DNA of 64,000 bases from an uncultured Opitutia bacterium (GTDB lineage Bacteria; Verrucomicrobiota; Verrucomicrobiia; Opitutales; Opitutaceae), in contig CAIRCN010000082.1 of the NCBI GenBank assembly GCA_903877135.1, forward strand, positions 1 to 64,000, in the 5' to 3' direction. Made by a program: the position numbers and the translations under genes. Position 1 is the stretch's first letter; every line of letters starts with the position of its first letter. Of the stretch, positions 35,287 through 62,080 are shown piece after piece. Below the pieces are notes generated by a model. The model saw only the letters and a list, made by a program, of their open reading frames with translations, made no database searches and was not told where the DNA came from.

Positions 35287-36768
<1,482 letters not shown>

Positions 36769-36899: not shown

Positions 36900-36936
36900 A
36901 ATCTCGAACACCGGCTCTGCCATCATTCCCTCCACC

Positions 36937-37467: not shown

Positions 37468-37488
37468 ACCTCACCCTCCTTATTTCCC

Positions 37489-38643: not shown

Positions 38644-38745
38644 CCTACTATTTCAGGGGGTAATAAAAAAATGACTGGCGGGTGGCGGGCCTTCCCGCCG
38701 CCCGTCAACAGTTTTACCAATAATAGGCCGCCTGAGCTAGGGGCG

Positions 38746-38985: not shown

Positions 38986-38994
38986 GGCCGATCG
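38968..38994 (+). promoter_or_regulatory. Possible sigma-28 promoter of cheA
   Basis: GAAATCGT, 11 bases, GCCGATCG. The -10 keeps six of eight, and the -35 core is GAAA. It lies 34 bp before the cheA ATG and overlaps the transposase relic. Moderate support only. Confidence 0.35.
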
Positions 38995-39028
38995 TTCCGA
39001 ATGAGTAATTAACGAATTCGCCCGCCCG

Positions 39029-41155: not shown

Positions 41156-41182
41156 GCCTGCGCTCTCACGACTGTGACCCCA

Positions 41183-46079: not shown

Positions 46080-46094
46080 CGGCAAATTTTGCCG
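46080..46094 (+). promoter_or_regulatory. Palindromic upstream element of the flgB promoter (candidate enhancer)
   Basis: CGGCAAATTTTGCCG, a 15-bp near-perfect palindrome centred 129 bp before the predicted flgB transcription start. The identical 15-mer occurs once more, before the flhB sigma-54 promoter (60825-60839). Upstream activators of the NtrC class bind such sites at this distance. Confidence 0.65.
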
Positions 46095-46189
46095 GCTCAG
46101 CATCCTGCGCCTGCGCCAGTTGACCTATTTTGACTCAGGGAAATTATATTGCGTTGTTTAACATCATTATATGGGTTCTTACAAGATGC

Positions 46190-46205
46190 TGGCACCGGCT
46201 TTGCT
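46190..46205 (+). promoter_or_regulatory. Sigma-54 promoter of the flgB operon
   Basis: TGGCACCGGCTTTGCT fits the sigma-54 consensus TGGCACR-N4-TTGCW at all defined positions except R. The -12 GC at 46203-46204 sets the expected start near 46216, one base before the ATG at 46217. Confidence 0.8.
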
Positions 46206-46216
46206 AACCGATGCTC

Positions 46217-46606
46217 ATGGTTGATCCCATCTTCCAATGTGATACCTATCAATTGGCCCGAAAACTCCTCGACGCTACCGCACTGCGCCAGGAGGCAATC
46301 GCTTCCAACATCGCGAATGCGGAGACGCCCGGTTACCAACGGCTCGATGTCGCGCCGGATTTCGCCCAGCAGCTGAAAGCTCAGTTGGCCTCGGGCGACC
46401 TTGCCACCAGCTCCGGTGGTCCGCAACCCCATCTCACCGTCGATACCACCGCCCGCAGCTCGCGTCCTGACGGCAACACCGTGGAGATCGAGCACGAACT
46501 GCTCGCGATGAACCGCAACGCTGTCGAACACGAATATTTGTCCGATGTGGTCTCGGCAAATCTCAAACAGCTCCGGGTTGCGATTACCGGGCGCAGCGCG
46601 CCGTAA
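46217..46606 (+). CDS. flgB: Flagellar basal-body rod protein FlgB
   Basis: This gene encodes 129 aa from ATG 46217 (MVDPIFQ); an ATG at 46211 lies upstream of the predicted sigma-54 start, so it should not be used. The N-terminal signature ALRQEAIASNIANAETPGYQ is the classic FlgB/rod motif, and the C-terminal helix (AVEHEYLSDVVSANLKQLR) is conserved. FlgB forms the proximal rod in the periplasm. First gene of the ~14.6 kb flagellar operon. There is no ribosome binding site before the ATG, so translation of a leaderless message is expected. Confidence 0.93.
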   Translation: MVDPIFQCDTYQLARKLLDATALRQEAIASNIANAETPGYQRLDVAPDFAQQLKAQLASGDLATSSGGPQPHLTVDTTARSSRPDGNTVEIEHELLAMNRNAVEHEYLSDVVSANLKQLRVAITGRSAP

Positions 46607-46626
46607 GCCCACTGGGTTAACCAGCC

Positions 46627-47046
46627 ATGAATCTTATCTCCGGCATCGACATCACCGCCAGCGCCTTGAACGCTCAGAAAACACGACTCGACATCGTCGC
46701 CCAGAACATTGCCAACGCCCAGACTACTCGCACACCCAACGGGGGCCCGTATCAGCGGCAGGTCGTGTCGTTCGAAAGCGAGCTCCTCAAGCACGAGGGC
46801 AAAAGCGGCGCTTCGTTGCAGAGCGTGAAGGTCGCCCAGGTGACGACCGACCACACGCCTGGCCAGCAGGTTTACAACCCCCAGCATCCGGATGCCGGTC
46901 CCGACGGCCTAGTGACGATGCCCAATGTTAACCTCTCCTACGAAATGGTCGATCTCATCACCGCGTCGCGCGCCTTCGAGGCCAACCTTTCCGTCGCCAA
47001 AAACGCCCGCCAGATGGCCATGAAAACTCTCGAGATTGGCAAATAA
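46627..47046 (+). CDS. flgC: Flagellar basal-body rod protein FlgC
   Basis: This gene encodes 139 aa. SALNAQKTRLDIVAQNIANA at the N-terminus and MVDLITASRAFEANLSVAKN near the C-terminus are the paired coiled-coil signatures of rod proteins, and DAGPDGLVTMPNVNLSYEM is specific to FlgC. Rod subunit acting with FlgB and FliE. It lies 20 bp after flgB and 12 bp before fliE in the conserved flgB-flgC-fliE order. Confidence 0.95.
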   Translation: MNLISGIDITASALNAQKTRLDIVAQNIANAQTTRTPNGGPYQRQVVSFESELLKHEGKSGASLQSVKVAQVTTDHTPGQQVYNPQHPDAGPDGLVTMPNVNLSYEMVDLITASRAFEANLSVAKNARQMAMKTLEIGK

Positions 47047-47058
47047 CTCGCCCTCCCC

Positions 47059-47397
47059 ATGTCCCCCATCGGTTCTGTCAGCCCGCTAAATTCCTCCTTA
47101 CTCAACCGAATCGACGCGCCGTTACCCAAGGTCGCTCTTACGTTGTCCCCCGGCCCGGGTGCTGCCGCGCCGGTAGGTGGTGGCTTCGGTTCGATGCTCG
47201 ACAACCTCGTCGCTTCCGTGGACGCCAAGCAGGGTGCCGCCCAGTCGCTCACCAACCAAGTGCTGCTCGGTCAGTCTGACCAGTTGCACCAAAGTGTCAT
47301 TGCGATGCAGGAGGCCTCGGTCGCGTTTTCCCTGATGGTCGAAGTCCGCAACAAACTGGTCGATTCCTATCAGGAGCTCATGCGCATGCAAGTATGA
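47059..47397 (+). CDS. fliE: Hook-basal body protein FliE
   Basis: This gene encodes 112 aa. The C-terminal half is FliE: LHQSVIAMQEASVAFSLMVE, VRNKLVDSYQELMRMQV. FliE joins the MS ring to the rod and is the first protein exported by the flagellar type III system. The N-terminal half is Pro/Gly-rich and variable as usual. It is between flgC (12 bp) and fliF (34 bp). Confidence 0.93.
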   Translation: MSPIGSVSPLNSSLLNRIDAPLPKVALTLSPGPGAAAPVGGGFGSMLDNLVASVDAKQGAAQSLTNQVLLGQSDQLHQSVIAMQEASVAFSLMVEVRNKLVDSYQELMRMQV

Positions 47398-47431
47398 GCA
47401 CTGATCGCTTCAATTCCCAAAACTCAGTGCA

Positions 47432-49039
47432 ATGAAAAATTTCGCCTCCTCCTTGCTCGCCCTTTGGCAGCAGCTCGGTCTCAACCAGCGTGTCTCGCTG
47501 ATCGTCGCCGCGCTGGCGGTCACCGGTGGGCTTGTCGGGGTGGTGCTCTGGTCGCAACGACCCGACTACCAGCTGCTTTATGCCCGGCTCAGCGAAAAAG
47601 ACGCCACGGCCATCATTGGCCAGCTCGAGACGCAAAACATCGCGCACCAGGTCTCCGCTGGTGGCACCGCCGTGTCGGTGCCCTCCGACCAGGTCTACAA
47701 ACTCCGCATGGACCTTGCGTCGAAGGGCCTGCCTAGCGGCGACGGCGTGGGGTTCGAGATCTTCGACAAGGGCCAATTCGGTTTATCCGACTTTGTGCAA
47801 CGCACCAATTACCTCCGCGCGATCCAAGGCGAGCTGGCCCGCACCATAATGCAGCTGCAGGGAGTGCATGCCGCGCGCGTCATGATCGTGCAGCCAGAAA
47901 ACCGCCTCCTGCTCACCGATCAGGGCGTCAAACCCACTGCGTCCGTCTTTGTCGACGTGGGCGGCGGCAGGCTCGAGATCGATCAGGTCAATGCGATCCG
48001 CCACCTCGTCGCCAACGCCGTGCAGGGTCTCGTCCCCGACCAGGTCGCGGTGATCGACAACCGCGGCCGCACGCTCTCCGAGGAGCTCAAGCAGGACCCC
48101 ACTCTCGGCAGTGCTTCCAGCCAGATGCGCTACCGCCAGCAGGTAGAGGATTATTTTTCGAAAAAGGTCGAGAGCATGCTCGCTTCCGTCATCGGCCCGG
48201 GCAACGCCGTCGTCCGCGTCTCCGCGGAAATCGACACTGAGGCCACGACGCTCACCTCGGAGAAATACGACCCCGAGGGCCAGGTTGTGCGCTCCCAGAC
48301 CATGGTCGAAGACACCTCCACCTCGGCCGAGACGCGCACCTCCGGCGGCGCGGTCGGCGTTAGTGCCAACGTTCCGGAAAAGAGCGCTGGCAATGAGACC
48401 GCCCGCCCGGTCTCGAACAGCGAGCAGAACCGCAAGAACCGCACGACCACCTACGAGATCAACCACAGCACGACTAATGTAACCCGCAACCCAGGCACCG
48501 TGAAGAGCCTGACGGCCGCCGTTTTCATCGCCCCGCGCTACGCGCCCGTGGCCCCCGCGGCAAAGGGCGCGCCCGCCCCCGAGCCTCAGGCGCAAAAGCG
48601 CTCCCCCGAGGAACTGAACGCCCTCCGCCAGCTTGTGATCAACGCCCTCGGGCTTAAGCCCGTTGCCGGGCAGACGCCCGACTCCCTGGTGTCTTTGCAG
48701 GAAATGCCCTTTCAGACGATCGACCGACTCCCCGCGCAGATCGAGGCTCTCCAGACCGAAAATCGCTGGATGGGATGGGTCGAAGCTGCGAGCCGCTGGG
48801 CGGCCGTCATCGGCGCCGGCGCGGTTTTGCTGATCTTTGCACGCATGCTTTCCCGCCAGAAACCCGAGGCTGTGCCCGTCGAGGTGCTATCTCTCTCTCC
48901 CGATGCGGCCCAACGCGCTTTACCTTCATCGTCCAACGGCATCACCCCTGACTTGCTGAACGAACTCATTAAACAAAAGCCTGCCAACGTCGGTGTCGCA
49001 TTGCGCGACTGGGTGGCCGCAGGCTCGACGAAGAATTGA
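47432..49039 (+). CDS. fliF: MS-ring protein FliF
   Basis: This gene encodes 535 aa. TM1 is at about 20-40 (VSLIVAALAVTGGLVGVVLW), ring-building motifs follow (YQLLYARLSEKDATAI, RAIQGELARTIMQLQGVHAA), a long periplasmic loop with a Ser/Thr/Asn-rich hinge comes next, and TM2 is at about 450-472, then a short cytoplasmic tail that binds FliG. FliF forms the MS ring and export-gate housing. Its length matches the family. The stop overlaps a possible TTG start of fliG, but ATG 49051 is preferred for the latter. Confidence 0.95.
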   Translation: MKNFASSLLALWQQLGLNQRVSLIVAALAVTGGLVGVVLWSQRPDYQLLYARLSEKDATAIIGQLETQNIAHQVSAGGTAVSVPSDQVYKLRMDLASKGLPSGDGVGFEIFDKGQFGLSDFVQRTNYLRAIQGELARTIMQLQGVHAARVMIVQPENRLLLTDQGVKPTASVFVDVGGGRLEIDQVNAIRHLVANAVQGLVPDQVAVIDNRGRTLSEELKQDPTLGSASSQMRYRQQVEDYFSKKVESMLASVIGPGNAVVRVSAEIDTEATTLTSEKYDPEGQVVRSQTMVEDTSTSAETRTSGGAVGVSANVPEKSAGNETARPVSNSEQNRKNRTTTYEINHSTTNVTRNPGTVKSLTAAVFIAPRYAPVAPAAKGAPAPEPQAQKRSPEELNALRQLVINALGLKPVAGQTPDSLVSLQEMPFQTIDRLPAQIEALQTENRWMGWVEAASRWAAVIGAGAVLLIFARMLSRQKPEAVPVEVLSLSPDAAQRALPSSSNGITPDLLNELIKQKPANVGVALRDWVAAGSTKN

Positions 49040-49050
49040 GGAACGCCGCC

Positions 49051-50073
49051 ATGTCGTCCGACCTCGATTTCGCCAAACTCAACCGTCAGCAGAAGCTCGC
49101 GGTGTTCCTGGTCGTGATTGGCCCTGAGGCGGCCGCTAACGTGCTCAAGCAGTTTGGCGACCCCGAAATCGAGGTGCTCTGCCGCGAGATGTCCACGCTC
49201 ACCATCGTTTCCGAGGCCGTGCAAAAATTGGCGATTGATGAATTTGCCTCCGTTGTCGCGCAGAGTGCCAACTCCGCTCTCGGCGGCCTCGCATACGCCC
49301 AGCGTACGCTAGAAATCGCCAAGGGTGACTACAAGGCCTCGGCCATCATTGGCCGCGTGGGCCCGGTGGGCACCTCAATCGATGTGATCAAGGACATAAG
49401 CGAGATGGAGGGCCGGCAGATATTCAATCTGATCAAGAACGAACAGCCGCAGACGATCTCGTTTGTCCTCTCCTATCTCGACGGCGCCAAGTCCGCCGAG
49501 GTCTTCGCTTTGCTCGGCCCCGAACTGCGCGAGGAAGTCGTCGAGCGACTTGGCACTATCGAGTCCACTTCACTCGAACTAGTGGGGAAGATCGCCCGCA
49601 ACCTAGGCAAACATTTTGATACGAAGGTGCGGCCGGCATTCCACCGCAGCGGCGGCGTCCGCGCCGTGGCCGACCTACTCAACCAGCTCGACAAGGATAT
49701 GAGCAAGAACCTGCTGGCGCGCCTCGAGGAGCGCAATGCCCAGCTTGGTGCCGCCATTCGCAAGAAACTGTTCAGCTTCGAGGATCTCGGCCGCCTCCAG
49801 CCGGCGGATCTGCAGCGCGTGCTGCGCGAAGTTGATTCTTCGAATCTCGCGGTCGCCATGAAGTCCGCCAGCGAAACGCTCCGCGCCAAATTTTACGCCG
49901 CTATCTCGAAACGCGCTGCCGAAAGTCTCAAGGAGGAGATCGAACTCCTTGGGCCGGTCCGCCTCAAAGACGTCGAGGTCGCGCAGGACGCCATCATCCA
50001 GGTCGTGCGTCGCCTTGAGGAGGAGGGGCAAATCAGCCTCGAATCCGATTCCGCTCAGAGTCTTGTAGCCTGA
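49051..50073 (+). CDS. fliG: Motor switch protein FliG
   Basis: This gene encodes 340 aa from ATG 49051 (MSSDLDFAKLNRQQ). All three FliG domains are present: N-terminal FliF-binding (KLAVFLVVIGPEAAANVLKQ), middle FliM-binding with the EHPQ-equivalent NEQPQTISFVLS, and the C-terminal charged torque helix (LFSFEDLGRLQPADLQRVLR). FliG sits on the MS ring and turns the motor with MotA. It starts 11 bp after fliF and is followed after 11 bp by fliH. Confidence 0.95.
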   Translation: MSSDLDFAKLNRQQKLAVFLVVIGPEAAANVLKQFGDPEIEVLCREMSTLTIVSEAVQKLAIDEFASVVAQSANSALGGLAYAQRTLEIAKGDYKASAIIGRVGPVGTSIDVIKDISEMEGRQIFNLIKNEQPQTISFVLSYLDGAKSAEVFALLGPELREEVVERLGTIESTSLELVGKIARNLGKHFDTKVRPAFHRSGGVRAVADLLNQLDKDMSKNLLARLEERNAQLGAAIRKKLFSFEDLGRLQPADLQRVLREVDSSNLAVAMKSASETLRAKFYAAISKRAAESLKEEIELLGPVRLKDVEVAQDAIIQVVRRLEEEGQISLESDSAQSLVA

Positions 50074-50084
50074 AAGCCCCTGCC

Positions 50085-50666
50085 ATGGCCTTTGCCGAGC
50101 TCATCTCCTTCGACCGGCCGCTCAAGGCGGTGGCAACGCATGACCAACGCGGTCGCACCTACTCGGAGGCCGAGTTGTCCGTGCAGACCGAGCAGGCCTA
50201 CAATAGTGGGGTAGACGCCGCCCGGGCCGCCGCCGACCAACAGATGGTAGAGCTACGCACGGAAATTGAGCAGCTGAGCGATGGTGTGCTGCGTAAGCTA
50301 TCTGACCTCGAAACTGCGCTCCTTGCGCAGCTGCGCGATGCGCTACCCGGCCTCGCGGTCGAAATTTCCCGACGACTTCTGGCTGGCTACGAGCCTTCGG
50401 CAGACATCGTGTCGAATCTTTGCGAAGAGGCGCTCGCCGAGCTTTTCCCGGAACGCGACAACCTTGAGTTGGCGGTCAGCCCGCGCGATGCCGCACTGCT
50501 CGAACAACTCAAACCCGGTTGGATGGAGCGCTATCCCGCCCTGCGCATCCGGGTCGACCATGGCCTCGGGCCTGGCGATTGCCAGGTCCGCAGCCGCTTC
50601 GGCCTCACCGATGCACGCCTGCAGACCAAACTAACCGCGATGTCACAAAGTCTGGTTCACGCATGA
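50085..50666 (+). CDS. fliH: Flagellar export ATPase regulator FliH
   Basis: This gene encodes 193 aa. A long helical N-terminal part (YSEAELSVQTEQAYNSGV, MVELRTEIEQLSDGVLRKL) and a C-terminal V/A-ATPase E-subunit-like part (ALPGLAVEISRRLLAGYEP, GPGDCQVRSRFGLTDARL) match FliH. It regulates FliI and links it to the C ring. The position between fliG and fliI agrees. The N-terminal SFDRPL motif could be the FliN-binding start. Confidence 0.88.
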   Translation: MAFAELISFDRPLKAVATHDQRGRTYSEAELSVQTEQAYNSGVDAARAAADQQMVELRTEIEQLSDGVLRKLSDLETALLAQLRDALPGLAVEISRRLLAGYEPSADIVSNLCEEALAELFPERDNLELAVSPRDAALLEQLKPGWMERYPALRIRVDHGLGPGDCQVRSRFGLTDARLQTKLTAMSQSLVHA

Positions 50667-50715
50667 CCTCACTTCGTCCAGTCGACGCCCGCCACGCGGC
50701 CCTCGGAGGAGCAGG

Positions 50716-52044
50716 ATGAACACCGGATCCAACGTTGCTCCGCTGGTGGAGCTACTTCGCACCCAGATCCGCCACCTGCCGCCGGTGCAGCGTGTTGGCG
50801 CGGTAACGGGCGTTGCCGGTCTTATTATCGAATCTGACGGCCCCAACGTCGGACTCGGCGAACTCTGCCTCATCCGCTCGTCGCGTTTTGATTTCCAAGT
50901 GCGCGCCGAGGTCGTAGGTTTCCGCGAACACCGTGTGCTTCTCATGCCGTTGGGCGACGCTGCTGGTCTGCACGTCGGCTGCGAGGTCGCCGCCTGCGAC
51001 CGCCCGGCGCTCCCGCAACCTGGCCCGAAAATGCTGGGCCGGGTTTTCGACGCCCTCGGTCGCCCGTTCGATGGGCTCGGCCCCATGCCGTCCAGTCGCA
51101 ACCTCGGGCAAAACGCCGCGCCGCCGCATCCGCTGCGCCGCCAGCGCATCAAGCACACCTTCGCGACGGGGGTTCGCGCGATCGATGCCTTCGTCCCGTT
51201 TGGCCGCGGCCAGCGCCTTGGCCTCTTCGCCGGTTCCGGTGTCGGCAAATCTACCCTTATGGGCATGATTGCCCGCGGCTCGGAGGCCGATGTCGTGGTC
51301 GTCGCGCTGGTGGGCGAGCGCGGCCGCGAAGTCCGCGAGTTCATCGAGAAAGACCTCGGCCCGGAGGGCATGAAGCGCGCAGTCGTTGTTGTGGCGACAT
51401 CCGACACTCCCGCGCCTCTGCGCCTGCGCGCCGCTTTCACCGCCACGGCGATTGCCGAAGCGTGGCGCGACGCCGGCAAAAACGTCCTATTTATGATGGA
51501 CTCGGTCACGCGCTTTGCGATGGCCCAGCGCGAAATTGGCCTCGCCATCGGCGAGCCGCCCGCCACTCGCGGCTACACTCCCTCGGTCTTCGCCATGCTG
51601 CCGCGCTTGCTGGAGCGCACCGGTGCCGGCGAGCAGGGGGCCATCACCGCGCTCTACACCGTGCTCGTCGAGGGCGATGACATGAACGAGCCCGTGGCGG
51701 ACACTGTCCGCGGCATCCTCGACGGCCACATCGTCCTCTCGCGCCAGCTGGCGCATTTCAACCATTACCCGGCGATCGACATCCTCGAAAGCGTGAGCCG
51801 GCTCAACCGCGATGTCTGCACTGCGGAGGAGGTCGCGCTCGCGGGCCGGGGCCGTGAGCAGCTCGCGCTCTACCGCAAGAACGAGGACCTCGTCTCCATC
51901 GGCGCCTATCAGAAGGGCGCGAATGCCGCGCTCGACCGCGCCATCGCGCTGCACGAGACGCTGGGCCAGTTCCTGCGCCAGGGCGTGCTGGAGCACACGG
52001 CCCGCGCCCAGAGTTTTCTTAACCTCCAAAAAATCCTCGCATGA
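50716..52044 (+). CDS. fliI: Flagellum-specific ATPase FliI
   Basis: This gene encodes 442 aa. Walker A FAGSGVGKSTLMG lies near residues 172-184, followed by VVVALVGERGREVREFIE and the Walker B segment LFMMDSVTRFAMAQREI, with ATRGYTPSVFAMLPRLLER. FliI hexamers power unfolding and delivery of export substrates. The end overlaps fliJ by 4 bp (ATGA). The protein looks complete. Confidence 0.96.
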   Translation: MNTGSNVAPLVELLRTQIRHLPPVQRVGAVTGVAGLIIESDGPNVGLGELCLIRSSRFDFQVRAEVVGFREHRVLLMPLGDAAGLHVGCEVAACDRPALPQPGPKMLGRVFDALGRPFDGLGPMPSSRNLGQNAAPPHPLRRQRIKHTFATGVRAIDAFVPFGRGQRLGLFAGSGVGKSTLMGMIARGSEADVVVVALVGERGREVREFIEKDLGPEGMKRAVVVVATSDTPAPLRLRAAFTATAIAEAWRDAGKNVLFMMDSVTRFAMAQREIGLAIGEPPATRGYTPSVFAMLPRLLERTGAGEQGAITALYTVLVEGDDMNEPVADTVRGILDGHIVLSRQLAHFNHYPAIDILESVSRLNRDVCTAEEVALAGRGREQLALYRKNEDLVSIGAYQKGANAALDRAIALHETLGQFLRQGVLEHTARAQSFLNLQKILA

Positions 52045-52496
52045 AACGTTTCCGTTTTCCCCTCCAGCCGGTAGGAGTCTTGCGCGCCCACCGGGAACTT
52101 CACGCTAAGGAACGGTTCGCCGCCGCCGTCCAGGTCTTCGTCCAGGCCGAAGCGGATCTTGCGGCCACCCTGGCGCGGCAGCATGCCCTGGAATTGACGC
52201 TGTTTGCCAGCCGCAAAACCACCTATCGCGCGGCGGAGGCGGCGCAGTTGCTGGCCGATTACCGCCGCGAGTGCACCGCCGAGGCCGCGGCCGAGCGCCG
52301 CGGCGCCGCCGCGCGCGTTGAGATTCAAAAGTGCCGGGAAGCCTATCTCGAGGCCCATCGTAATCTTGAGATTGTCAACCGCCTTGAGGTCAAAGCACGC
52401 GCCACCCACCGGCGGGCGACGGACCGCGAAGAGCAGGCCGAATTCGACGACCGCGCCGGCAGCCGACACCTCAAACCCGAATTCTCCAGCCCATGA
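52041..52496 (+). CDS. fliJ: Flagellar export protein FliJ
   Basis: This gene encodes 151 aa. It begins MKRFRFPLQPVGVLRAHRE, as typical FliJ proteins do, and continues as one long antiparallel coiled coil (FAAAVQVFVQAEADLAAT, EAYLEAHRNLEIVNRLEV). FliJ escorts chaperones and activates the FliI ring and the FlhA gate. It overlaps fliI and the next gene by 4 bp each, which indicates tight translational coupling. Confidence 0.88.
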   Translation: MKRFRFPLQPVGVLRAHRELHAKERFAAAVQVFVQAEADLAATLARQHALELTLFASRKTTYRAAEAAQLLADYRRECTAEAAAERRGAAARVEIQKCREAYLEAHRNLEIVNRLEVKARATHRRATDREEQAEFDDRAGSRHLKPEFSSP

Positions 52497-53110: not shown

Positions 53111-53175
53111 CCGGGACGATTCCATCCCGCCCCATGGAAGGAGCGGTTGCGAGCCACGGAGGGTTCGGGCTTACC

Positions 53176-55308
53176 ATGCAACTCTCCGCCTCCATTTTTC
53201 CTCTCGATCCCGCCACCGCAATGGCGACTCCGCCCACGGTGACTGGAGCGTCCACCGCCGCTCCCGCGCCCAGTCTCTTTGGGGAACTGCTCCTGGCTCA
53301 GTCGGGCGAAATTGCGGGTCCATTCTCCAACGCGCCGCTTTGCCTGCACAGCGGCCCGGCTCCTGTGCCTTCGGACCGCGCCGCGACGATTTCGAATGCC
53401 GCTGTCCTCGGAAACGCGGTGGCCGGCTGGCTTTCGCCTGCGCAGGCCAATTTGGCGCCACCAATTCCGGTGCCCGCGGGTAGTGAGGTTCTTGGCTCGG
53501 GCGATCTCGCTTCAACCGAATCGACTTCCGCGACCGCCGCCAAGGTAGAATCTATGGGCGGTAGTTTCTTTGGCATCATGCCGACGAGTTTCATGCGTGG
53601 CGGCTGCGGCCGCGTTCCCCTCGACCAAAATGCGTCGAACGATGAAGCAACGGGGCGAAACCCGTCACCGGCGCCTGTGTCAGCAGGGCAAGTCTGCGCC
53701 GCCCCGGTTGCCCCAGTGGAATTGTCCAGCACTGCCAGCGCCGCGACGGATTTTCTGTCGGCGAAGAGCGCCGGTGGAGCTGACACCACGGCAAGCCGCT
53801 GCGCCAGCAAGGCTCCCGCCCGGTGCACATCGATGGGTGACGGCAAGAACCCGAGCTCCACTGGAGTGACGGTGTCGCGAGCCAAGGCAGGACGCGAGGC
53901 TCAAGGCGGTCTGGCCGCTAGCGATTTGTCCAGCCCGACGCTGACCGATCTCCTGCCCGTTGGCCCACAGCCGGCCAACCCCGAGACCGCTGCGGCAATT
54001 TCGGATCATGCTTCGGTCTTCCAGTGTGATCCGACAGTGACCACTGCAGTCGCAGGCGGTCCCGTTTGCATGGAGAAAAAACGCCCGCAGGCTGGCTCGG
54101 TTGCTCTCGCCGCAGCGGGCTTCGCTCCGGTCACGCCTTGGGCTCAAACGGTCTTGGCGGAGCAAAATGCGTCAGCCACCGCCGCAACCCGGCCCACGCT
54201 CGACCAAGCGCCGCTGCTGGCTTCGTTGCCGGCTCTGAACTCGCTACGGGCACCGCTTGTCACAAGTGGAGTCGCAGCGCCATCGCCTGCGGGTATGCCT
54301 TTGATCGGGACGACGGGCGAGGCCGCGGTTCCAGTCGGCGCCGACCTCGCTACCCCCTCGGCACCGCGGGATTACTCGACAGTCGCTTCGCCGCGCCTTG
54401 CCGCCGCTGCACCCGCTTCTCGCGATTTTTCAGCCTCATCACTTACGCTCGGCGATGTCGCCGCTCCGCTAGTGAGCGACGCCGTGCGCTCGAACGAAAC
54501 CACTGTTTCCCCTCCGCGAATTGCGTCCGTGCTCACAGATGTGTCCCGCGTCCTGACCCCCCCGCTCGCCGCCGCGGCAAATTCTGCCGCCGTCGTCGGT
54601 GCAGCGACGAATTCGGGGCGCATCGAGGCAAACTGTGGAGAAAAAAAGATACTATCAACTAACGCGCAGGTAGATGCGGAGAGTACGATCGGCCTTGGCA
54701 CCAACGTTGCTAAAACAAAAGTCTCCATGCCAGCAACACTCAACCCCCATTCACCTGCCGCGGAGTCCGGTGCGACGCGCAGTGTGTCGGTGCCGCAGAC
54801 CTTCGAGGCATTGGTCAGGGAGACGTCGCAGCTTGACGCGCCCGAACCGGTGCAGACTGCCCAGCAGGCTGTTGATCGGGTGCTCACAGTCACGGATCGG
54901 GTTGCCTCAGGGGATCACCGTGCGGTGGAACTCCAGTTCAAGATTTCGGGCGTCGATCTTGCGGTGCATGTCGCCCTGCGCGGCGACACTATCCACACCA
55001 CGTTTCGCACCGACTCGCCAGAACTGCGCTCGGCGCTTGCCCAAGAGTGGCAGACCGTGAACGCCCAGCCTGCCGCGCGCGCGCAACGGCTCGCCGAGCC
55101 GGTTTTCACCGCCTCCTCATCAGGTTCGCAGACAGCATTGCAGGCCGACACCGGCGGCACGCCGCAGCGCGACGCCGGCGCTCGGCCGGAAGCACCTCAG
55201 CCGTTCAACGCGTTGCGCCCAACCTCAGCGGAAGCCTCCAGCACCGCTCCCACAGTTGCAGCGACTCCGTTGGCCGATTCCACCCGACTCCTTCACGCCT
55301 TCGCCTAA
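53176..55308 (+). CDS. fliK: Hook-length control protein FliK
   Basis: This gene encodes 710 aa from ATG 53176 (MQLSASIFPLDPA), which GGAGGG precedes; an in-frame ATG at 53134 is possible. The first ~560 residues are low-complexity Ala/Ser/Thr/Pro sequence, consistent with a flexible molecular ruler. The C-terminal FliK domain (about 570-655) includes RAVELQFKISGVDLAVHVA and TTFRTDSPELRSALAQEW. FliK measures the hook and switches FlhB specificity. The position before flgD/flgE is standard. Length is above average for FliK. Confidence 0.85.
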   Translation: MQLSASIFPLDPATAMATPPTVTGASTAAPAPSLFGELLLAQSGEIAGPFSNAPLCLHSGPAPVPSDRAATISNAAVLGNAVAGWLSPAQANLAPPIPVPAGSEVLGSGDLASTESTSATAAKVESMGGSFFGIMPTSFMRGGCGRVPLDQNASNDEATGRNPSPAPVSAGQVCAAPVAPVELSSTASAATDFLSAKSAGGADTTASRCASKAPARCTSMGDGKNPSSTGVTVSRAKAGREAQGGLAASDLSSPTLTDLLPVGPQPANPETAAAISDHASVFQCDPTVTTAVAGGPVCMEKKRPQAGSVALAAAGFAPVTPWAQTVLAEQNASATAATRPTLDQAPLLASLPALNSLRAPLVTSGVAAPSPAGMPLIGTTGEAAVPVGADLATPSAPRDYSTVASPRLAAAAPASRDFSASSLTLGDVAAPLVSDAVRSNETTVSPPRIASVLTDVSRVLTPPLAAAANSAAVVGAATNSGRIEANCGEKKILSTNAQVDAESTIGLGTNVAKTKVSMPATLNPHSPAAESGATRSVSVPQTFEALVRETSQLDAPEPVQTAQQAVDRVLTVTDRVASGDHRAVELQFKISGVDLAVHVALRGDTIHTTFRTDSPELRSALAQEWQTVNAQPAARAQRLAEPVFTASSSGSQTALQADTGGTPQRDAGARPEAPQPFNALRPTSAEASSTAPTVAATPLADSTRLLHAFA

Positions 55309-55314
55309 AATACC

Positions 55315-55788
55315 ATGCAAGTCACCCCAGTTACTTCACCGACCATTACTGCCGCGACCGCGGCTACCAATCCCACCGCGCCCACGGCCACACCGACCAA
55401 GAGCAGCCTAGGCCAGGCCGATTTTCTGAAACTGCTCTCCCAGCAGTTCCAGCAGCAAGATCCAATGAAACCGATGGATGACACGGCCTTCATCGCCCAA
55501 ATGGCCCAGTTCACCGCTCTCGATCAGTCCACCTCGCTCCTTGCGCAGGTCACGGCGATGAACGCCAAGCAAGATGCGGTGACCGCTAATAGCTACATCG
55601 GTCGTAATGTCACCGTCAACGACGGCAACGGCGGCACGGCCGTCGGCCCAGTGACCGGCGTCGATATGAGCAGTGGTGCCCCGTGCCTCGTTATCGGTGC
55701 CAGCACCTATGCGGTTTCCTCCGTTGTGCGTGTCGAACCGGCCACTCCGGCCGCCGGGACACCGGCGGCGGGCGCCCCAACTCCTTAA
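55315..55788 (+). CDS. flgD: Hook-cap protein FlgD
   Basis: This gene encodes 157 aa. The FlgD signature is present: SLGQADFLKLLSQQFQQQDP and DDTAFIAQMAQFTALDQST. A short beta part (YIGRNVTVNDGNGG) follows, and an Ala/Pro tail ends the protein. It is shorter than the ~220 aa of enteric FlgD, missing most of the Ig-like domain. It forms the scaffold for hook polymerisation. It lies 6 bp after fliK and 40 bp before flgE. Confidence 0.9.
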   Translation: MQVTPVTSPTITAATAATNPTAPTATPTKSSLGQADFLKLLSQQFQQQDPMKPMDDTAFIAQMAQFTALDQSTSLLAQVTAMNAKQDAVTANSYIGRNVTVNDGNGGTAVGPVTGVDMSSGAPCLVIGASTYAVSSVVRVEPATPAAGTPAAGAPTP

Positions 55789-55828
55789 CTTTCCCAATCC
55801 GTCCCTAACCTCAAACCCACTAACACTC

Positions 55829-56629
55829 ATGGCACTCATCGGCACACTCACCTCGGGCGTCAGCGCGCTGCGCACCTTCAGCAAGGGCCTCGAACTCATC
55901 GGCAACAACATCGCCAACATTGACACGACGGCCTACAAGTCCTCCTCGGCAAGCTACACCGACTCGTTCAGCAACACGCTTCGCGCTGCTTCTGCAGCCG
56001 GCGGCGATGCTGCCGTTCAGGTCGGCACTGGCGTGCAGGTTTCGGGCATCAACACCAATTTCACTCAGGGCTCGCTCTCCAGCACGGGCGTCATTACGGA
56101 CCTTGGGGTCTCCGGCCAAGGCTACTTTGTCGTGCAGGATGGCAACGGGGTCAACTATGCAACGCGCGACGGCTCGTTCAATTTAGATTCGGGCGGCAAT
56201 CTGGTGAACGCCAAGGGCTACAACGTGCTGGATTCCACCGGCACGAAGATCACGGTCGCCAATTATAGTCAGGCAGCCTCCGTCAGCATCAGCAGCGATG
56301 GCACGGTGACGGCATTCGATTCCAGTGGCAAGGCCACGGCCACGCAGAAAGTCGGTCTACTCACGATTCCGGACGAGACGAAGCTGATGAAGCAAGGTGG
56401 CAGCCTCTACGATTTCTCGGCCACAGGAGCAGTGGTCACCGATATTTCTACGGCTAGCACTGGTGGCCATGGCACAATCCAGTCTGGCACGCTTGAACTC
56501 TCCAATGTCGACTTAACTGAGCAGTTTTCCAACCTGATTACCACGCAACGCAGCTTTCAGGCCGGCTCCCGCCTGATCACGGTTTCCGACACCGTGCTCG
56601 AAGATGTCGTCAACCTGAAGCGCAGCTGA
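55829..56629 (+). CDS. flgE: Flagellar hook protein FlgE (short form)
   Basis: This gene encodes 266 aa from ATG 55829; the frame upstream to 55673 overlaps flgD and is not used. N-terminal TSGVSALRTFSKGLELIGNN and NIANIDTTAYKSS and C-terminal SNVDLTEQFSNLITTQRSFQ are classical hook/rod signatures, with VSGQGYFVVQDGNG between. FlgE forms the hook; at 266 aa it is short, near FlgF/FlgG size. The flgD-flgE order favours the hook assignment, but a FlgF-like subunit cannot be excluded. Confidence 0.82.
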   Translation: MALIGTLTSGVSALRTFSKGLELIGNNIANIDTTAYKSSSASYTDSFSNTLRAASAAGGDAAVQVGTGVQVSGINTNFTQGSLSSTGVITDLGVSGQGYFVVQDGNGVNYATRDGSFNLDSGGNLVNAKGYNVLDSTGTKITVANYSQAASVSISSDGTVTAFDSSGKATATQKVGLLTIPDETKLMKQGGSLYDFSATGAVVTDISTASTGGHGTIQSGTLELSNVDLTEQFSNLITTQRSFQAGSRLITVSDTVLEDVVNLKRS

Positions 56630-56639
56630 GGATTTCGCC

Positions 56640-57251
56640 ATGGCCGCCACCAAACCCTCCACTCCGGCTGCAACGACCACAGCACCCGCGGCGGCTGCTT
56701 CCGCCTCCGGTTCTGCGAGCTCACCGGCACCTGCACCCGTTGCCGTGGGCGGAGGACTTAAGTCTTGGATCCCGACGATCCTTGCCTTGGTGCTGGCTCC
56801 TGTTTGCACCTGGGCCGTGGGAGAGTTCGTGCTCATCCCACGCCTGCAGAAAAAACTGTCGGCACCGACGGTCGCAGATGCCACCGTTAGCCCGGCCGAA
56901 GGCGCTTCCGAAAAAGAGAGCAAGGAAGGCAAGGGAGGCAAGGAGGGTGCGCCCAACTACGAGTTCCAGAACGTCGTCGTCAATCTCGCCGGCACGATGG
57001 GCACGCGTTATCTCAAGACCAGCTTCCTGGTGACCGGTGCGACCGAGGCCAATATCAAATCTGTCTTCGAGGCCAACAAGCCGCGACTGACCGATGTCAC
57101 CCTCAACGTCCTCTCGTCGCTGTCGCTGGCTGACTTGGAGGAGCCCGGAGCGAAGAATGTGCTGCGAGAAAAACTCGTTACGGCCTACAATCAGGCCCTA
57201 GGGCACAAGGTCGCCGAGCAGGTCTATTTCTCCGACTTCGTGGTGCAGTGA
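56640..57251 (+). CDS. fliL: Basal body-associated protein FliL
   Basis: This gene encodes 203 aa. A low-complexity Ala/Pro/Ser N-terminus precedes one membrane helix at about 41-62 (WIPTILALVLAPVCTWAVG), then a charged linker (Glu/Lys/Gly) and the periplasmic FliL domain (NVVVNLAGTMGTRYLKTSFL, LREKLVTAYNQALGHKVAEQ). FliL surrounds the stator and supports torque. Its stop overlaps the fliM start by one base. Confidence 0.88.
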   Translation: MAATKPSTPAATTTAPAAAASASGSASSPAPAPVAVGGGLKSWIPTILALVLAPVCTWAVGEFVLIPRLQKKLSAPTVADATVSPAEGASEKESKEGKGGKEGAPNYEFQNVVVNLAGTMGTRYLKTSFLVTGATEANIKSVFEANKPRLTDVTLNVLSSLSLADLEEPGAKNVLREKLVTAYNQALGHKVAEQVYFSDFVVQ

Positions 57252-58309
57252 TGGCCGACGACACCTCCATCATTGCGGGCAGCATTCTCGATCAATCCGA
57301 GATCGATCGGCTGTTGGCGCAGGAGACGGCGGCCCCGGTTGCCAAGCAGTTCTTGATCCGCCCCGAGGGCTCCCGAACCTCGTCCTCTGGCGATGCCAAG
57401 GTCGAGGCCTTCGACTTCCGCAACCCGGCGTTTCTGTCCGAGGTCGAGTTGCGCCGGCTACGCCTGTTGCACGAAGATTTTATCCGCTATCTCTCGGCGC
57501 GGCTGTCGCTCTATCTGCGCATGGAGTTCGGTCTGAAAATGGCCCGGCTTACCACCTCCACCTATTCAAAGTTCACAGAGTCGCTGCCGAATCCCACCCA
57601 CCTCTGCCTGTTCAAGGTGGAGCCGCTCGTCGGCGCCGGCATCCTCGACGTTAATCCGCGCCTAGCGCTCACCATCGCCGACCGCCTGCTGGGTGGCCGT
57701 GGCCACTCGGTCAAGGCCGAGCGCTACCTGACGGAAATCGAAATTGCCCTGCTTGAAGACGTGATTCACATCGTGCTCGAGGAGTGGTGCGGACAGTGGA
57801 AAAGCGATCAAGAGCTGCGACCCTTCATCATCGGCCACGAGAACAACGGCCGCTTCCTCCAGACTTCACCCAAAGACGCGATCGTCCTCATCCTCACGCT
57901 CGAGGCGAATTTCGGCGACTGCTCCGAACAGCTCCAGATTGGGGTGCCCTACTATACAATCGAGCCGGTGGTGAAGAAAATGCAGGTGCGCCGCCAGAAG
58001 GACACCGCCTCGTCCCACACCGAAAAGCGCGCCGCCTGGCATCCGGCCTACGAGCGGATCAAGGTGCCAGTGCGTGCAGAGTGGAACGTCTTCGACCTCA
58101 CCGTGCGCGAGATCACCAGTCTGCGCGTGGGCGACGTGGTCGAACTGCCCGCCTCAATCTTTCAGGAAACCCACGTGCTGCTAAACGGCACACCCAAATT
58201 CGCCGGCACCGTTGGGCTCGATTCCGACCGTGTCGCCGTGCAACTCACCCGCCGCCTTCCCGCCGAGGAAACGGCCCAAGCCAAATCCGATGGAAGAAAA
58301 AACCCTTGA
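57251..58309 (+). CDS. fliM: Motor switch protein FliM
   Basis: This gene encodes 352 aa from ATG 57251, which overlaps the fliL stop (TGATG). The N-terminal CheY-P binding peptide is intact (SILDQSEIDRLLAQE, residues 11-25). The middle CheC-like domain binds FliG (LRLLHEDFIRYLSARLSLYL, GGRGHSVKAERYLTEIE), and the C-terminal SpoA domain pairs with FliN (VRAEWNVFDLTVREITSLRV). It changes motor direction on CheY-P binding. The end overlaps fliN by 20 bp. Confidence 0.95.
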   Translation: MADDTSIIAGSILDQSEIDRLLAQETAAPVAKQFLIRPEGSRTSSSGDAKVEAFDFRNPAFLSEVELRRLRLLHEDFIRYLSARLSLYLRMEFGLKMARLTTSTYSKFTESLPNPTHLCLFKVEPLVGAGILDVNPRLALTIADRLLGGRGHSVKAERYLTEIEIALLEDVIHIVLEEWCGQWKSDQELRPFIIGHENNGRFLQTSPKDAIVLILTLEANFGDCSEQLQIGVPYYTIEPVVKKMQVRRQKDTASSHTEKRAAWHPAYERIKVPVRAEWNVFDLTVREITSLRVGDVVELPASIFQETHVLLNGTPKFAGTVGLDSDRVAVQLTRRLPAEETAQAKSDGRKNP

Positions 58310-58541
58310 TATCGTGCTCGACGTAAAGGTGAAGGTCACCGTGCAGTTGGGCTCCGTCCACCTCCCCATGCGCGAGGTGCTCGAACTCGCCGCCGGTTCG
58401 GTCGTGCAGCTTATGCAGCACGCCAGCGACCCGGTCGGCCTCTACGTCAACGACAAGCTCGTTGCCTACGGTGAAGTCGTCGTAGTGGAGGATAATTTTG
58501 GCATCAAAATCACCGAGCTCGTCGGTAGCGTCAAACCATGA
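58290..58541 (+). CDS. fliN: Motor switch protein FliN
   Basis: This gene encodes 83 aa from ATG 58290, overlapping fliM by 20 bp. Almost the whole protein is the SpoA domain: TLDIVLDVKVKVTVQLGSVH, REVLELAAGSVVQLMQHASD, YGEVVVVEDNFGIKITEL. FliN forms the bottom of the C ring and helps dock export complexes. It is a short, single-domain form, lacking a CheC extension. It overlaps fliO by 4 bp. Confidence 0.94.
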   Translation: MEEKTLDIVLDVKVKVTVQLGSVHLPMREVLELAAGSVVQLMQHASDPVGLYVNDKLVAYGEVVVVEDNFGIKITELVGSVKP

Positions 58542-58951
58542 GCTGGGGCGCCCGCATTCGCTGGCTAACTGCGACGCTGGCTGCGGTCCTGTTCACTCTG
58601 GCCGCCGTGGCCGGTCCGACCACCGAGAGCCAGATTATCGTCCCAGTGCACACGGTGAAATCCGCCGCACCCGCGGGTGGTGGCGATGGCTCGGGGCTGC
58701 TCACCGCGGTGGCGGTGCTCGTGCTGGCCGGCGCCGGTGGCTGGCTGCTGTGGCACCGACGCAGTGGGTTGGGAGTGAGCCGCGCGCCACGACAGCTCGC
58801 CATTGATGAAACCCGCTCGCTCGGCAACCGGCAGTATCTTGTAGTTGCATCCTATCGGGATAAAAAATACCTCCTTGGCGTCTGCCCCGGCCGCATCGAC
58901 TTGCTCGCCCCGCTGCAGGAATCGGGTGCCGCGGAGGAACCGCATCCATGA
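58538..58951 (+). CDS. fliO: Flagellar export assembly protein FliO
   Basis: This gene encodes 137 aa. It has a signal-like N-terminal helix (about 8-24) and one clear membrane helix (about 52-71, LLTAVAVLVLAGAGGWLLW), followed by the FliO cytoplasmic part (LAIDETRSLGNRQYLVVASY, YLLGVCPGRIDLL). FliO stabilises FliP during gate assembly. Identified by the fliN-O-P context and the conserved LGNRQYLVV-type motif. It overlaps fliN and fliP by 4 bp each. Confidence 0.8.
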   Translation: MSWGARIRWLTATLAAVLFTLAAVAGPTTESQIIVPVHTVKSAAPAGGGDGSGLLTAVAVLVLAGAGGWLLWHRRSGLGVSRAPRQLAIDETRSLGNRQYLVVASYRDKKYLLGVCPGRIDLLAPLQESGAAEEPHP

Positions 58952-59760
58952 ACGGTCTTCGGTCACTATGCCGGCTGCTTCCCCTGCTGCTCGTGCTTGC
59001 AGGAAGTTTCGCTCCTGCCGTCTCGGCACGAAATGCCCCGCCGACGGTCGCGCCTGCCCCAGCGGCTGTCCCTGCGACAAAGACCGATCCCTTTCGCCTC
59101 AACATCGGCTTGGAGGGCACAGGCCGCCCCGGCGATGTCAGCGTGGCGGTGCAGATCGTGATTGTGATGACGCTGCTCTCGGTGGCGCCCTCGATCGTGC
59201 TGCTGATGACGAGCTTCACGCGCATCGTGATCGTGCTCGGCTTTGTGCGCACCGCCCTTGGCACCCCCAGCGCGCCCTCAAACCAGATTATCGTAGGACT
59301 CTCGCTGTTTCTGACCTTCTTCCTCATGGGACCGGTGTTTGACCGTGTGCAGAAGGAGGCCCTAAACCCGTATTTGGATGGCAAGCTTACCTCGGCCCAG
59401 GCGCTCGACCAGGCGTCGCTCCCGTTGAAGGATTTCATGCTCAAGCAGGCGCGCACACGTGATCTGGAATATTTCCTCGAACTCGGCGGCTACGGACCGA
59501 CGGCGGTGAAAGACCTGCCGATGCGCGTGGTCATCCCGGCCTTTGTGATCAGCGAACTGCAGACGGCGTTTCAGATGGGCTTCCTCCTTTTTCTGCCGTT
59601 CCTCGTGATCGATTTTCTGGTGTCGTCGGTGTTGATGGCGCTCGGCATGATGATGATGCCGCCGACGGTAGTGGCACTACCGCTCAAGCTGCTGCTGTTC
59701 GTGCTAGTTGATGGCTGGCACCTCGTCGTGAAGTCGCTGGTGCAGAGTTTTGTAACCTGA
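58948..59760 (+). CDS. fliP: Export gate protein FliP
   Basis: This gene encodes 270 aa. A cleavable signal peptide (about 1-26) and a Pro/Ala linker precede the FliP core: VVIVMTLLSVAPSIVLLMTS FTR-type helix, followed by VLGFVRTALGTPSAPSNQII, GLSLFLTFFLMGPVF, and the C-terminal SELQTAFQMGFLLFLPFLVI with MALGMMMMPP. Five FliP subunits form the export gate with FliQ and FliR. The sequence looks complete. Confidence 0.96.
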   Translation: MNGLRSLCRLLPLLLVLAGSFAPAVSARNAPPTVAPAPAAVPATKTDPFRLNIGLEGTGRPGDVSVAVQIVIVMTLLSVAPSIVLLMTSFTRIVIVLGFVRTALGTPSAPSNQIIVGLSLFLTFFLMGPVFDRVQKEALNPYLDGKLTSAQALDQASLPLKDFMLKQARTRDLEYFLELGGYGPTAVKDLPMRVVIPAFVISELQTAFQMGFLLFLPFLVIDFLVSSVLMALGMMMMPPTVVALPLKLLLFVLVDGWHLVVKSLVQSFVT

Positions 59761-59779
59761 ACCCCGCCGGACATTCGCG

Positions 59780-60049
59780 ATGAATCCGGAACTGGCGATT
59801 GATCTCTTTAAGACGACCGTGGTGTTCGCGCTCTACATCGTTGCGCCGTTTCTGGGAGTGATGTTGGTGATCGGCCTGCTCGCGAGCCTGTTTCAGTCCG
59901 TCACGAGCATGCAGGAACAGACGCTGACTTTCGTGCCGAAACTTGTGGCACTGGCCGCGCTGCTACTCGTGCTCACGCCTTGGCTGCTGCGTTCGCTCTC
60001 GGAATTTGCGATCACGATGGTCACGCGCATGGGCACGCTAGGCCACTGA
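59780..60049 (+). CDS. fliQ: Export gate protein FliQ
   Basis: This gene encodes 89 aa, the usual length, with two membrane helices (about 14-38 and 52-74). [20 protein letters not shown] is the FliQ signature between them. It lies 19 bp after fliP and 19 bp before fliR. It forms the outer part of the FliPQR gate. Confidence 0.95.
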
Positions 60050-60068
60050 ACTCCGCCCCGCTGCCGCG

Positions 60069-60821
60069 ATGAGCCTGGCCTACCTGCTAACATGGATGAT
60101 GGTGTTGCTGCGTTCGCTTGGCGTCATCCTGCAACTGCCCGTGGTAGCGGGGCACCCGCTGCCCGTGACGGTGCGCGTTGGCATCTGCGTGTGTCTGGCG
60201 ACGTTGCTGGCGGGCATCGTGCCAGCGGGACCTGTGCCGGCTTCGCTCTGGGCCCTCGCGTTTGCCACGGGTGGGGAAGTCCTGTTGGGACTAGCGATGG
60301 GATTCGTCGCGCGTATGGCGTTTTCAGCGGTCGAAATGGCCGGTCGCATAATGACCTCGGAGATCGGCCTGACGGCCTCTTCGGGCATGGGTGTGCCCGA
60401 GCCTTCGAGCGAGCCGCTCGCTGCGCTGCTGTCCACTTTTGCGATCGTGCTGTTTTTCCTGTTTGGCGGGCACCTGATGATGATCAGCGCCTTGGCCCGG
60501 AGCTTCAGCCTCGCGGCGGCCGGCCAGGCGGCGCTCGGCCCGGGCGCAGGTGATTCCCTGATCCGCGCCACGGGCCATCTCATTGAACTCGGCCTGCGCA
60601 TTGCTGCGCCGTTCATCGCGATGAATTTCCTCATCACGCTCGCCTTCTCCGTACTGGGCCGGGCCGTGCCAAAAATGAGCGTGTTTGTGATTAGCTTTTC
60701 GATGCGCATCATCGCGGGTTTCACCCTATTGGGGGCGTCCGGCGCGCTGATCGCGCGGTATCTTTATTCTGAGTTCGATCAAACTCCGGTGCGCATGCTC
60801 CAGATTATGATCCGGCATTGA
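60069..60821 (+). CDS. fliR: Export gate protein FliR
   Basis: This gene encodes 250 aa with about six membrane helices. FliR landmarks: [60 protein letters not shown]. One FliR subunit completes the gate. It ends the operon that starts at flgB; its stop is 3 bp before the palindromic element of the next promoter. Confidence 0.95.
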
Positions 60822-60824
60822 GAA

Positions 60825-60839
60825 CGGCAAATTTTGCCG
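60825..60839 (+). promoter_or_regulatory. Palindromic upstream element of the flhB promoter (candidate enhancer)
   Basis: The same 15-mer as at 46080-46094 (CGGCAAATTTTGCCG), centred 138 bp before the predicted flhB transcription start, compared with 129 bp at flgB. The 9-bp difference is close to one helix turn, so both sites face the polymerase alike. Confidence 0.65.
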
Positions 60840-60943
60840 CCGCGCGAAGGGGTTTTTGATAATGTTTTAGACAGTCAAGTCCGTGCGGGCTTTAAAAGTT
60901 TAATGCCTTGGTTATTAATGATTAAAAATATGTAAAAGCCCTC

Positions 60944-60959
60944 TGGCATTGGCATTGCT
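60944..60959 (+). promoter_or_regulatory. Sigma-54 promoter of the flhBA operon
   Basis: TGGCATTGGCATTGCT matches the sigma-54 layout with GG and GC at exact spacing (TGGCA and TTGCT). Expected start is near 60970, four bases before ATG 60974. The DNA between it and the upstream palindrome is AT-rich, which would help bending. Confidence 0.8.
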
Positions 60960-60973
60960 TAATAGCCGTGCCC

Positions 60974-62077: not shown

Positions 62078-62080
62078 TCC

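Follow-up and report, generated by a model that had tools for sequence, protein, structure and literature searches.

Flagellar genes fill a long run of a 64,000-nucleotide stretch from an uncultured Opitutia bacterium (contig CAIRCN010000082.1, positions 1 to 64,000; hereafter the window), and the same 15-bp palindrome lies upstream of sigma-54 promoters before both flgB and flhB. Are these palindromes enhancers and, if so, how many flagellar genes do they serve? An earlier sequence-only reading proposed a two-site circuit for basal body and export gate genes, bound by a FleR/FlrC-like activator encoded at 35287. Comparative analyses of the whole genome (4.23 Mb in 87 contigs; an Opitutaceae-type bacterium, Verrucomicrobiota) and of its class suggest that the kind of mechanism was rightly proposed and its extent underestimated: the palindromes are quite probably enhancers of one sigma-54 flagellar regulon, including a module inside fliK that may make a separate C-terminal product, FliK-C.

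Four candidate modules are present in this genome (Table 1), each combining a near-identical palindrome with a strict sigma-54 promoter (TGGCAY-N5-TTGCW, with GG and GC invariant), and three have an A/T-rich box near -51. The promoters before flgB and flhB, described earlier as near-ideal, are both strict sites, the 15-mer is identical at the two without mismatch, and the palindrome centres (46087 and 60832) do lie 129 and 138 bp 5' of 46216 and 60970. The statement that the window holds no further copy was mistaken, as a one-mismatch copy with its own strict sigma-54 site 121 bp on lies within fliK. The two-site circuit thereby becomes one of four modules, the last of them 4.5 kb outside the window, and the narrow target set of basal body and export gate genes is unsupported.

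Strict sigma-54 strings alone are not enriched in the genome, since there are seven against six for the control. Four of the seven lie within 22.6 kb of flagellar DNA, all on the + strand (p 1.8e-9 by a binomial test, for a region picked afterwards), and these four have a palindrome with 0-2 mismatches; for the other three, the best match within 500 bp has at least four mismatches. Similarly, the palindrome has 14 matches at ≤3 mismatches in the window, compared with a shuffle mean of 3.59, and none of 100 shuffles reached 14. How common the 15-mer is genome-wide bears directly on the enhancer idea: CGGCAAANTTTGCCG occurs exactly at two places only, the flgB and flhB sites, which speaks for it. 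At ≤2 mismatches, it occurs at 60 places, compared with 24 for the reversed control. Among the 15 of these 60 places that were listed, three have a 0-mismatch sigma-54 site 50-200 bp downstream, the downstream site at one more (L003, minus strand) has two mismatches, and 11 have none within 50-200 bp; an enhancer role for all 60 near-palindromes is therefore unsupported.

The 15-mer also recurs together with sigma-54 sites in relatives, a second outcome in favour of the enhancer idea. The comparison set comprised 384 genomes of the class, with FliF in 90 and none in 294. A composite of palindrome and sigma-54 site at a spacing of 75-105 bp was found at 25 sites in 21 genomes, against 8 control matches, and is present in 17/90 FliF-positive and 4/294 FliF-negative genomes. 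Sixteen of the 25 sites are directly before flgB (7), flgF (6), or flhB (3), the genes being named by eye from printed starts at 23 sites, to which the two sites of this genome are added. Ninety FliF loci were available from 89/90 FliF-positive genomes (G230 contributes two; G073, with FliF at a contig start, is omitted). At 24 of these flgB was not recognised, and four more flgB genes are without a GG/GC sigma-54 site; flgB is thus recognised at 66/90 loci and has the site at 62, of which 31 match perfectly, 28 have one mismatch, and 3 have two. Three of the 62 have too little upstream DNA, leaving 59 testable for the palindrome. It is found at ≤2 mismatches in 16/59 (0.2% of dinucleotide shuffles) and at ≤3 mismatches in 24/59 (1.2% of shuffles), and a few flgB loci carry symmetric variants (e.g. 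CGGAAAATATTTCCG). The first proposal, that flagellar sigma-54 promoters share an enhancer-like palindrome at a set distance, thus holds in part of the relatives; by these comparisons, the palindrome has changed or is missing in much of the class.

Promoter architecture was compared in 46 sites of four promoter types, which were hand-picked and include close relatives, a circumstance that weakens the case for the A/T box. The best palindrome offset is mostly near -65, -110, or -121, the latter two being about one helical turn apart. The box has the consensus GAAAATTTTAATTCATTG, with an expectation-maximisation score of 462 versus 262-303 in 20 mononucleotide-shuffled sets. It starts at -51 or -52 from the T of TGG in 24/46 sites, and the top count at a single offset is 16 versus 3-7 in shuffles. 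Many relatives keep the palindrome, the sigma-54 site, and the box near -51, and in many others the sigma-54 site alone is present. The box lies between enhancer and promoter, where it would most naturally be read as a place of DNA bending; as a candidate IHF target, it has a consensus resembling a reversed IHF site, and the genome has two PF00216 (HU/IHF family) genes.

Start codons lie close to these promoters. Taking the C of TTGC as -12 puts +1 at index 26 counted from the T of TGG (the RpoN motif of Caulobacter spmX is at -26 of its start; PMC4287350), and the ATG is at index 27 for flgB, 31 for fliK-C, 30 for flhB, and 30 for flgF. Almost leaderless mRNAs are therefore predicted, since the start codons are 27-31 nt from the promoter's first T. 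For flgB, a second in-frame ATG at index 21 is upstream of the predicted transcription start. Across the class, an in-frame start codon is found at index 26-33 in 49/62 flgB sites. Additionally, anti-Shine-Dalgarno pairing is predicted to be weaker than -4 kcal/mol upstream of 31/37 flagellar and chemotaxis genes, most of which are without a Shine-Dalgarno match; Verrucomicrobia with scarce Shine-Dalgarno sequences have been described (PMC10783764). By eye, 20 of the 37 genes (window 46217-62081, and C82, the same contig, to 74906) have CC directly 5' of the start codon, a possible start-codon context of the lineage. Also by eye, loci L263 (G282) and L265 (G018) show index-31 promoter-ATG spacing before type IV pilin-like genes, and short-leader sigma-54 promoters may therefore extend beyond flagella. 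If confirmed, almost leaderless sigma-54 transcripts would be unlike the leaderless mRNAs of C. jejuni, which are reported with sigma-70 promoters (PMC3847290).

In the module inside fliK, the sigma-54 site at 54696 is followed in frame by an ATG. A search for the strict string with an in-frame ATG in the 384 genomes gave 29 sites in 28 genomes, against 2 control matches; 10 are in fliK, 4 are before flgB, flgF, or flhB, and 15 are neither or unassignable. The strict string with ATG is thus present in fliK in 10/90 FliF-positive genomes, and four loci found without requiring the ATG (L028, L030, L047, and L050) bring the distinct strict nested fliK loci to 14, of which 3 have no palindrome at ≤3 mismatches. 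An ATG-blind test covered 18 fliK frames that immediately precede a recognised flgD (background 0.072 per stretch); the flgD motif is absent from 11/20 stretches and 30/39 loci, which fall outside this test, and some genomes are perhaps of the same species. A sigma-54 site with ≤1 mismatch is present in 15/18 frames, versus 1/18 in antisense and 1/18 in reversed letters. Of these 15, 13 have an in-frame ATG at exactly index 31 and 2 an in-frame GTG at 28. The two GTG frames are L041 and L045, and a palindrome match is absent in both.

Third codon positions within fliK help to separate DNA from protein constraint. The palindrome is at -121 in the window, in L028, and in five same-family genomes, and at -124 in L030, which was left out of the measure because its palindrome is one codon out of register. 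Across the 7 loci that carry it at -121, conservation at third codon positions is 0.89 within the palindrome, 0.61 within the A/T box, and 0.32 elsewhere, and residue conservation is 0.43 within the palindrome and 0.13 elsewhere. None of the searches behind this measure required the palindrome, and the sigma-54 columns, which all of them required, were kept apart from it. Since third positions are kept and residues poorly so, it is the DNA, rather than the protein, that is conserved at the fliK module.

The predicted nested product resembles the export-switch part of FliK, with modest scores. The whole fliK-like frame has no Pfam match at E≤0.001. Among the FliK-C members, PF02120 (Flg_hook) is the commonest Pfam match and is weak, with 10/14 matching at E≤1 (best 1.2e-4); for the window FliK-C it gives E 0.075 and 13.3 bits, compared with a cut-off of 29.8. 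An AlphaFold model of FliK-C has a mean predicted local distance difference test score of 60.3, with the ten-residue blocks from residue 41 to 130 at 72-91. The top two Foldseek matches for this core are 5cuk (PscP-SS; E 1.5e-3) and 2rrl (Salmonella FliK-C; E 0.011), with none at E≤0.001, and alignments to the two have VIA Z of 7.4 and 7.0 and root-mean-square deviations of 3.4 and 8.7 over 88 and 98 residues. The nested 193 aa may thus correspond to the FliK export-switch core. Salmonella FliK lacking residues 2-99 is described as export-deficient, yet with considerable export-specificity switching (PMC6972891), so a separate FliK-C could be active.

Whether fliK in this class harbours a whole sigma-54 gene of its own, with enhancer, bend box, promoter, and in-frame start and with an almost leaderless mRNA that gives the export-switch domain alone, is close to an even question, tilting slightly towards yes. 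If true, the substrate switch could be tuned by sigma-54 apart from the hook-length ruler, and FliK-C would be the first protein made from the transcript that encodes the hook cap, hook, and export gate. The coupling of ruler and switch in FliK would then be approachable in organisms that apparently express the switch alone. No report of the fliK module was found among the top-ranked matches listed in the open-access literature.

The activator at 35287 is, from its distribution and its conserved recognition helix, the best candidate partner of the palindrome, as the sequence-only reading held. PF00158 (1e-69) and PF02954 (6.2e-15) both match above cut-off. Relatives at E≤1e-116, a cut-off set after viewing a list in which some matches are partial, are present in 86/90 FliF-positive versus 17/294 FliF-negative genomes; at a stricter 7.7e-134, the counts are 73/90 and 5/294. 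The ten-residue recognition helix could be aligned in 29/30 of the best activator loci and is identical in 24/29, with one change in each of the other 5. The label FleR/FlrC-like was only loosely right. The protein scores below the model cut-offs for both FlbD (NF050807 equivalog; 384.5 bits versus 750) and FlgR (NF049963; 310.2 bits versus 750), and no PAS-type kinase gene adjoins it within the window. Its receiver has the E/D, phospho-Asp, T, and K positions, as do 8 relatives (a filtered subset of 30 loci), and an FlbD-like divergent receiver is not matched in these nine proteins. In a distant ortholog in G361 (L309:6540-7958, minus strand), the receiver begins IMVAQEE, with VAQEE at the acidic pair; there the pair looks lost, suggesting FlbD-like degeneration within the activator clade.

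A phosphate source might be encoded nearby. The neighbours in the window include a receiver-only open reading frame (ORF), CheX, a receiver protein, and CheA; read along 35287-42043, the activator gene is followed by genes for CheX, a receiver protein, a small ORF, CheA, and an HDOD protein. The activator-CheX-receiver order is kept in many Opitutaceae, and CheA also in some. A scan of ten neighbour proteins from six relatives gave a single hybrid kinase (PAS/HisKA/HATPase/receiver), which in G081 lies two genes away from the activator. Phosphorylation of the activator by a kinase of the CheA family is conceivable; this is only an idea, since a CheX or receiver gene beside the activator was undetected in most distant relatives of the neighbourhood comparison.

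In the preferred reading, a dimer of the 35287 enhancer-binding protein would bind the palindrome, an IHF/HU-type protein would bend the DNA at the A/T box, and the AAA+ ring of the activator would open the sigma-54 polymerase complex. The mRNAs would begin 0-6 nt 5' of the start codon and be translated with little or no leader. The fliK-internal module would drive flgD, flgE, fliL, fliM, fliO, fliP, and onwards as far as fliR, and translation of its mRNA would first yield FliK-C, the export-switch domain lacking the ruler. The modules are likely the heads of transcription units for the rod, MS ring, C ring, hook, and export gate. An export-apparatus checkpoint is described for Campylobacter and Caulobacter (PMC7064773); since MS-ring and export genes appear to be behind sigma-54 promoters here, the checkpoint could not follow the order it has there without other promoters.

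Several observations weigh against this reading. No palindrome at ≤3 mismatches is found in 35/59 flgB upstream regions, and Opitutales-type loci such as L052, L053, L055, L059, L060, and L067 have a sigma-54 site with no palindrome match at ≤4; therefore, the enhancer sequence is not class-wide. The genome's own flgF module is weaker than the others, with a spacing of -66, two mismatches, and no A/T box at -51. In 13/62 flgB sites, the first start codon is at index 37-46, corresponding to leaders of ~11-20 nt, and three of the 18 fliK frames (G058, L031, and L046) have no internal sigma-54 site. Additionally, at the 1e-116 cut-off the activator occurs in 17 FliF-negative genomes and is missing from 4 FliF-positive ones.

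Other explanations account for parts of the pattern. The fliK-internal promoter may be real and serve only flgD and the genes downstream, with the in-frame ATG unused and no FliK-C accumulating. In three E. coli cases described in PMC4591121, intragenic sigma-54 promoters produce mRNAs in which the next gene has an exceptionally long 5' leader, and flgD begins 6 nt past the fliK stop. However, an unused leader needs no start codon at that position, and the fliK ATG, found at one index in 13 of the 15 ATG-blind sites with the other two having a nearby GTG, has the spacing of flgB starts; this explanation is a serious though less likely possibility. Alternatively, another regulator (a repressor or nucleoid protein) could bind the palindrome while the sigma-54 activator uses another site. 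The link between activator and palindrome rests on sequence, the genome has 10 PF00158 matches (6 strong), and many flgB sites lack the palindrome in genomes that possess the activator. Against this, the palindrome distance suits an enhancer, the activator and composite motif both track FliF, and the activator's recognition helix is nearly invariant, which leaves such a division of roles improbable. It would be very surprising if the pairs reflected chance or coding constraint, with the fliK pair a by-product of codons and the flhB pair a terminator-like repeat after fliR. The fliK pair does lie within coding sequence, and the flhB palindrome follows the fliR stop by 4 nt and is itself followed by a short T run. 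In fliK, this explanation is disfavoured by the sense versus antisense counts and the third-position conservation, and the same palindrome type is found before flgB and flgF in relatives.

The flagellar genes in the window comprise flgB, flgC, fliE, fliF, fliH, fliI, fliJ, the fliK-like frame, flgD, flgE, fliL, fliM, fliO, fliP, fliR, and flhB (fliJ and fliL below the curated cut-off), and fliG and a MotE-like gene are named only from position and by eye. The nearest relatives of FliI are from Opitutaceae and other Verrucomicrobiota. Downstream of flhB are flhA, an flhF-like gene (without a Pfam match), a FliA-like sigma factor, motA, motB, the flgF-like gene, flgG, flgA, flgH, and flgI. The flgF-like gene, 4.5 kb past the window end, is of FlgE/F/G type and owes its label to its position.

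Table 1. Features of the candidate sigma-54 modules and associated genes (window positions unless prefixed C82)
Feature	Position	Strand	Remarks
Palindromic candidate enhancer CGGCAAATTTTGCCG, flgB module	46080..46094	.	0 mismatches
A/T-rich box, flgB module	46139..46156	+	Offset -51; candidate DNA-bending (IHF/HU-like) site
Strict sigma-54 promoter TGGCACCGGCTTTGCT before flgB	46190..46205	+	0 mismatches to TGGCAY-N5-TTGCW
flgB	46217..46606	+	ATG at index 27 from T of TGG; predicted leader ~0-1 nt
fliK-like frame, 724 codons, hosting the third module	53134..55308	+	No Pfam match at E≤0.001 for the whole frame
Palindromic candidate enhancer CGGCAAATTCTGCCG inside fliK	54575..54589	.	One mismatch
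A/T-rich box inside fliK	54640..54657	+	Offset -56; third-codon-position conservation 0.61 vs 0.32 elsewhere
Strict sigma-54 promoter TGGCACCAACGTTGCT inside fliK	54696..54711	+	0 mismatches; 121 bp past palindrome
Nested in-frame ORF fliK-C, 193 aa	54727..55308	+	ATG at index 31; putative FliK export-switch domain
Palindromic candidate enhancer CGGCAAATTTTGCCG, flhB module	60825..60839	.	0 mismatches; begins 4 nt after fliR stop
A/T-rich box, flhB module	60893..60910	+	Offset -51
Strict sigma-54 promoter TGGCATTGGCATTGCT before flhB	60944..60959	+	0 mismatches
flhB	60974..62077	+	ATG at index 30; predicted leader ~3-4 nt
Fourth module, before flgF-like gene	Sigma-54 site C82:68484	+	0 mismatches; CGGCAAAATTTACCC (two mismatches) 66 bp upstream; same contig, outside window
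Predicted transcription starts	46216, 54722, 60970, C82:68510	+	flgB, fliK-internal, flhB, and flgF modules
NtrC-type enhancer-binding protein	35287..36768	+	Receiver, AAA+, Fis-type helix-turn-helix; candidate activator of all four modules

Two further observations concern the region 5' of the activator gene. A sigma-28-like site, TAAAGATTTCCTCAAACCGCGCCGATA (window 28625-28651, minus strand), lies ~100 bp 5' of a flagellin gene and fits the FliA-like sigma factor at C82:65577; to judge from this site, the flagellin is probably under sigma-28 control. Between fliS and the activator gene, a weakly STAND/AAA-like protein of 410 aa (window 32841-34070, minus strand) had no match at E≤1e-6 in stretches from 20 relatives.

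Sigma-54 control of motility in Opitutia has already been predicted (PMC12316311), and the top-ranked matches listed in the open-access literature include no experimental work on flagellar regulation in the phylum, for which the modules offer a testable flagellar regulatory code. The sigma-54 flagellar hierarchy as such is known, and the system here is a variant of it: judging by the comparisons above, it combines an activator clade of its own with almost leaderless starts and a module nested in fliK. Like FleQ/FleR in Pseudomonas, FlrA/FlrC in Vibrio, and FlgSR in Campylobacter, it pairs sigma-54 with an enhancer-binding protein for basal-body genes, and a further likeness is that its flagellin is probably under sigma-28. 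In contrast to those systems, the activator has no PAS-type kinase gene beside it in the window, the hybrid PAS kinase of G081 being two genes off. Two tiers in Vibrio and Pseudomonas serve genes that one activator seems to cover here.

By analogy, the system may work like the FlbD-ftr-IHF-sigma-54 arrangement (with FliX) of Caulobacter crescentus, in which, as here, an NtrC-type activator is combined with repeated elements at flagellar sigma-54 promoters. The ftr element is a palindrome resembling CGGCAA..TTGCCG, and FlbD has a similar recognition helix. FlbD is described as acting on ftr elements of flagellar sigma-54 promoters with a need for IHF and, as far as the cited accounts go, with no known sensor kinase (PMC3930126, PMC3096577). 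Its receiver diverges and is without some key residues (PMC3096577), whereas in the receiver here the acidic, Asp, T, and K positions are all present. Similarly, the fliK module has partial parallels. The E. coli intragenic sigma-54 promoters are likewise inside coding sequence and conserved across species, as presented in PMC4591121; here, in contrast, enhancer, A/T box, and promoter are all within the gene, with an in-frame ATG where transcription is predicted to begin, which would be expected to give a nested protein rather than a long leader. The short C-terminal isoforms of SctQ (SpaO, HrcQ), as reported in PMC12132427 and PMC8553256, are likewise shorter C-terminal products of an export-apparatus gene. 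The HrcQ isoform is described as arising from an internal translation start, whereas a separate promoter, in a length-control gene, is proposed for FliK-C.

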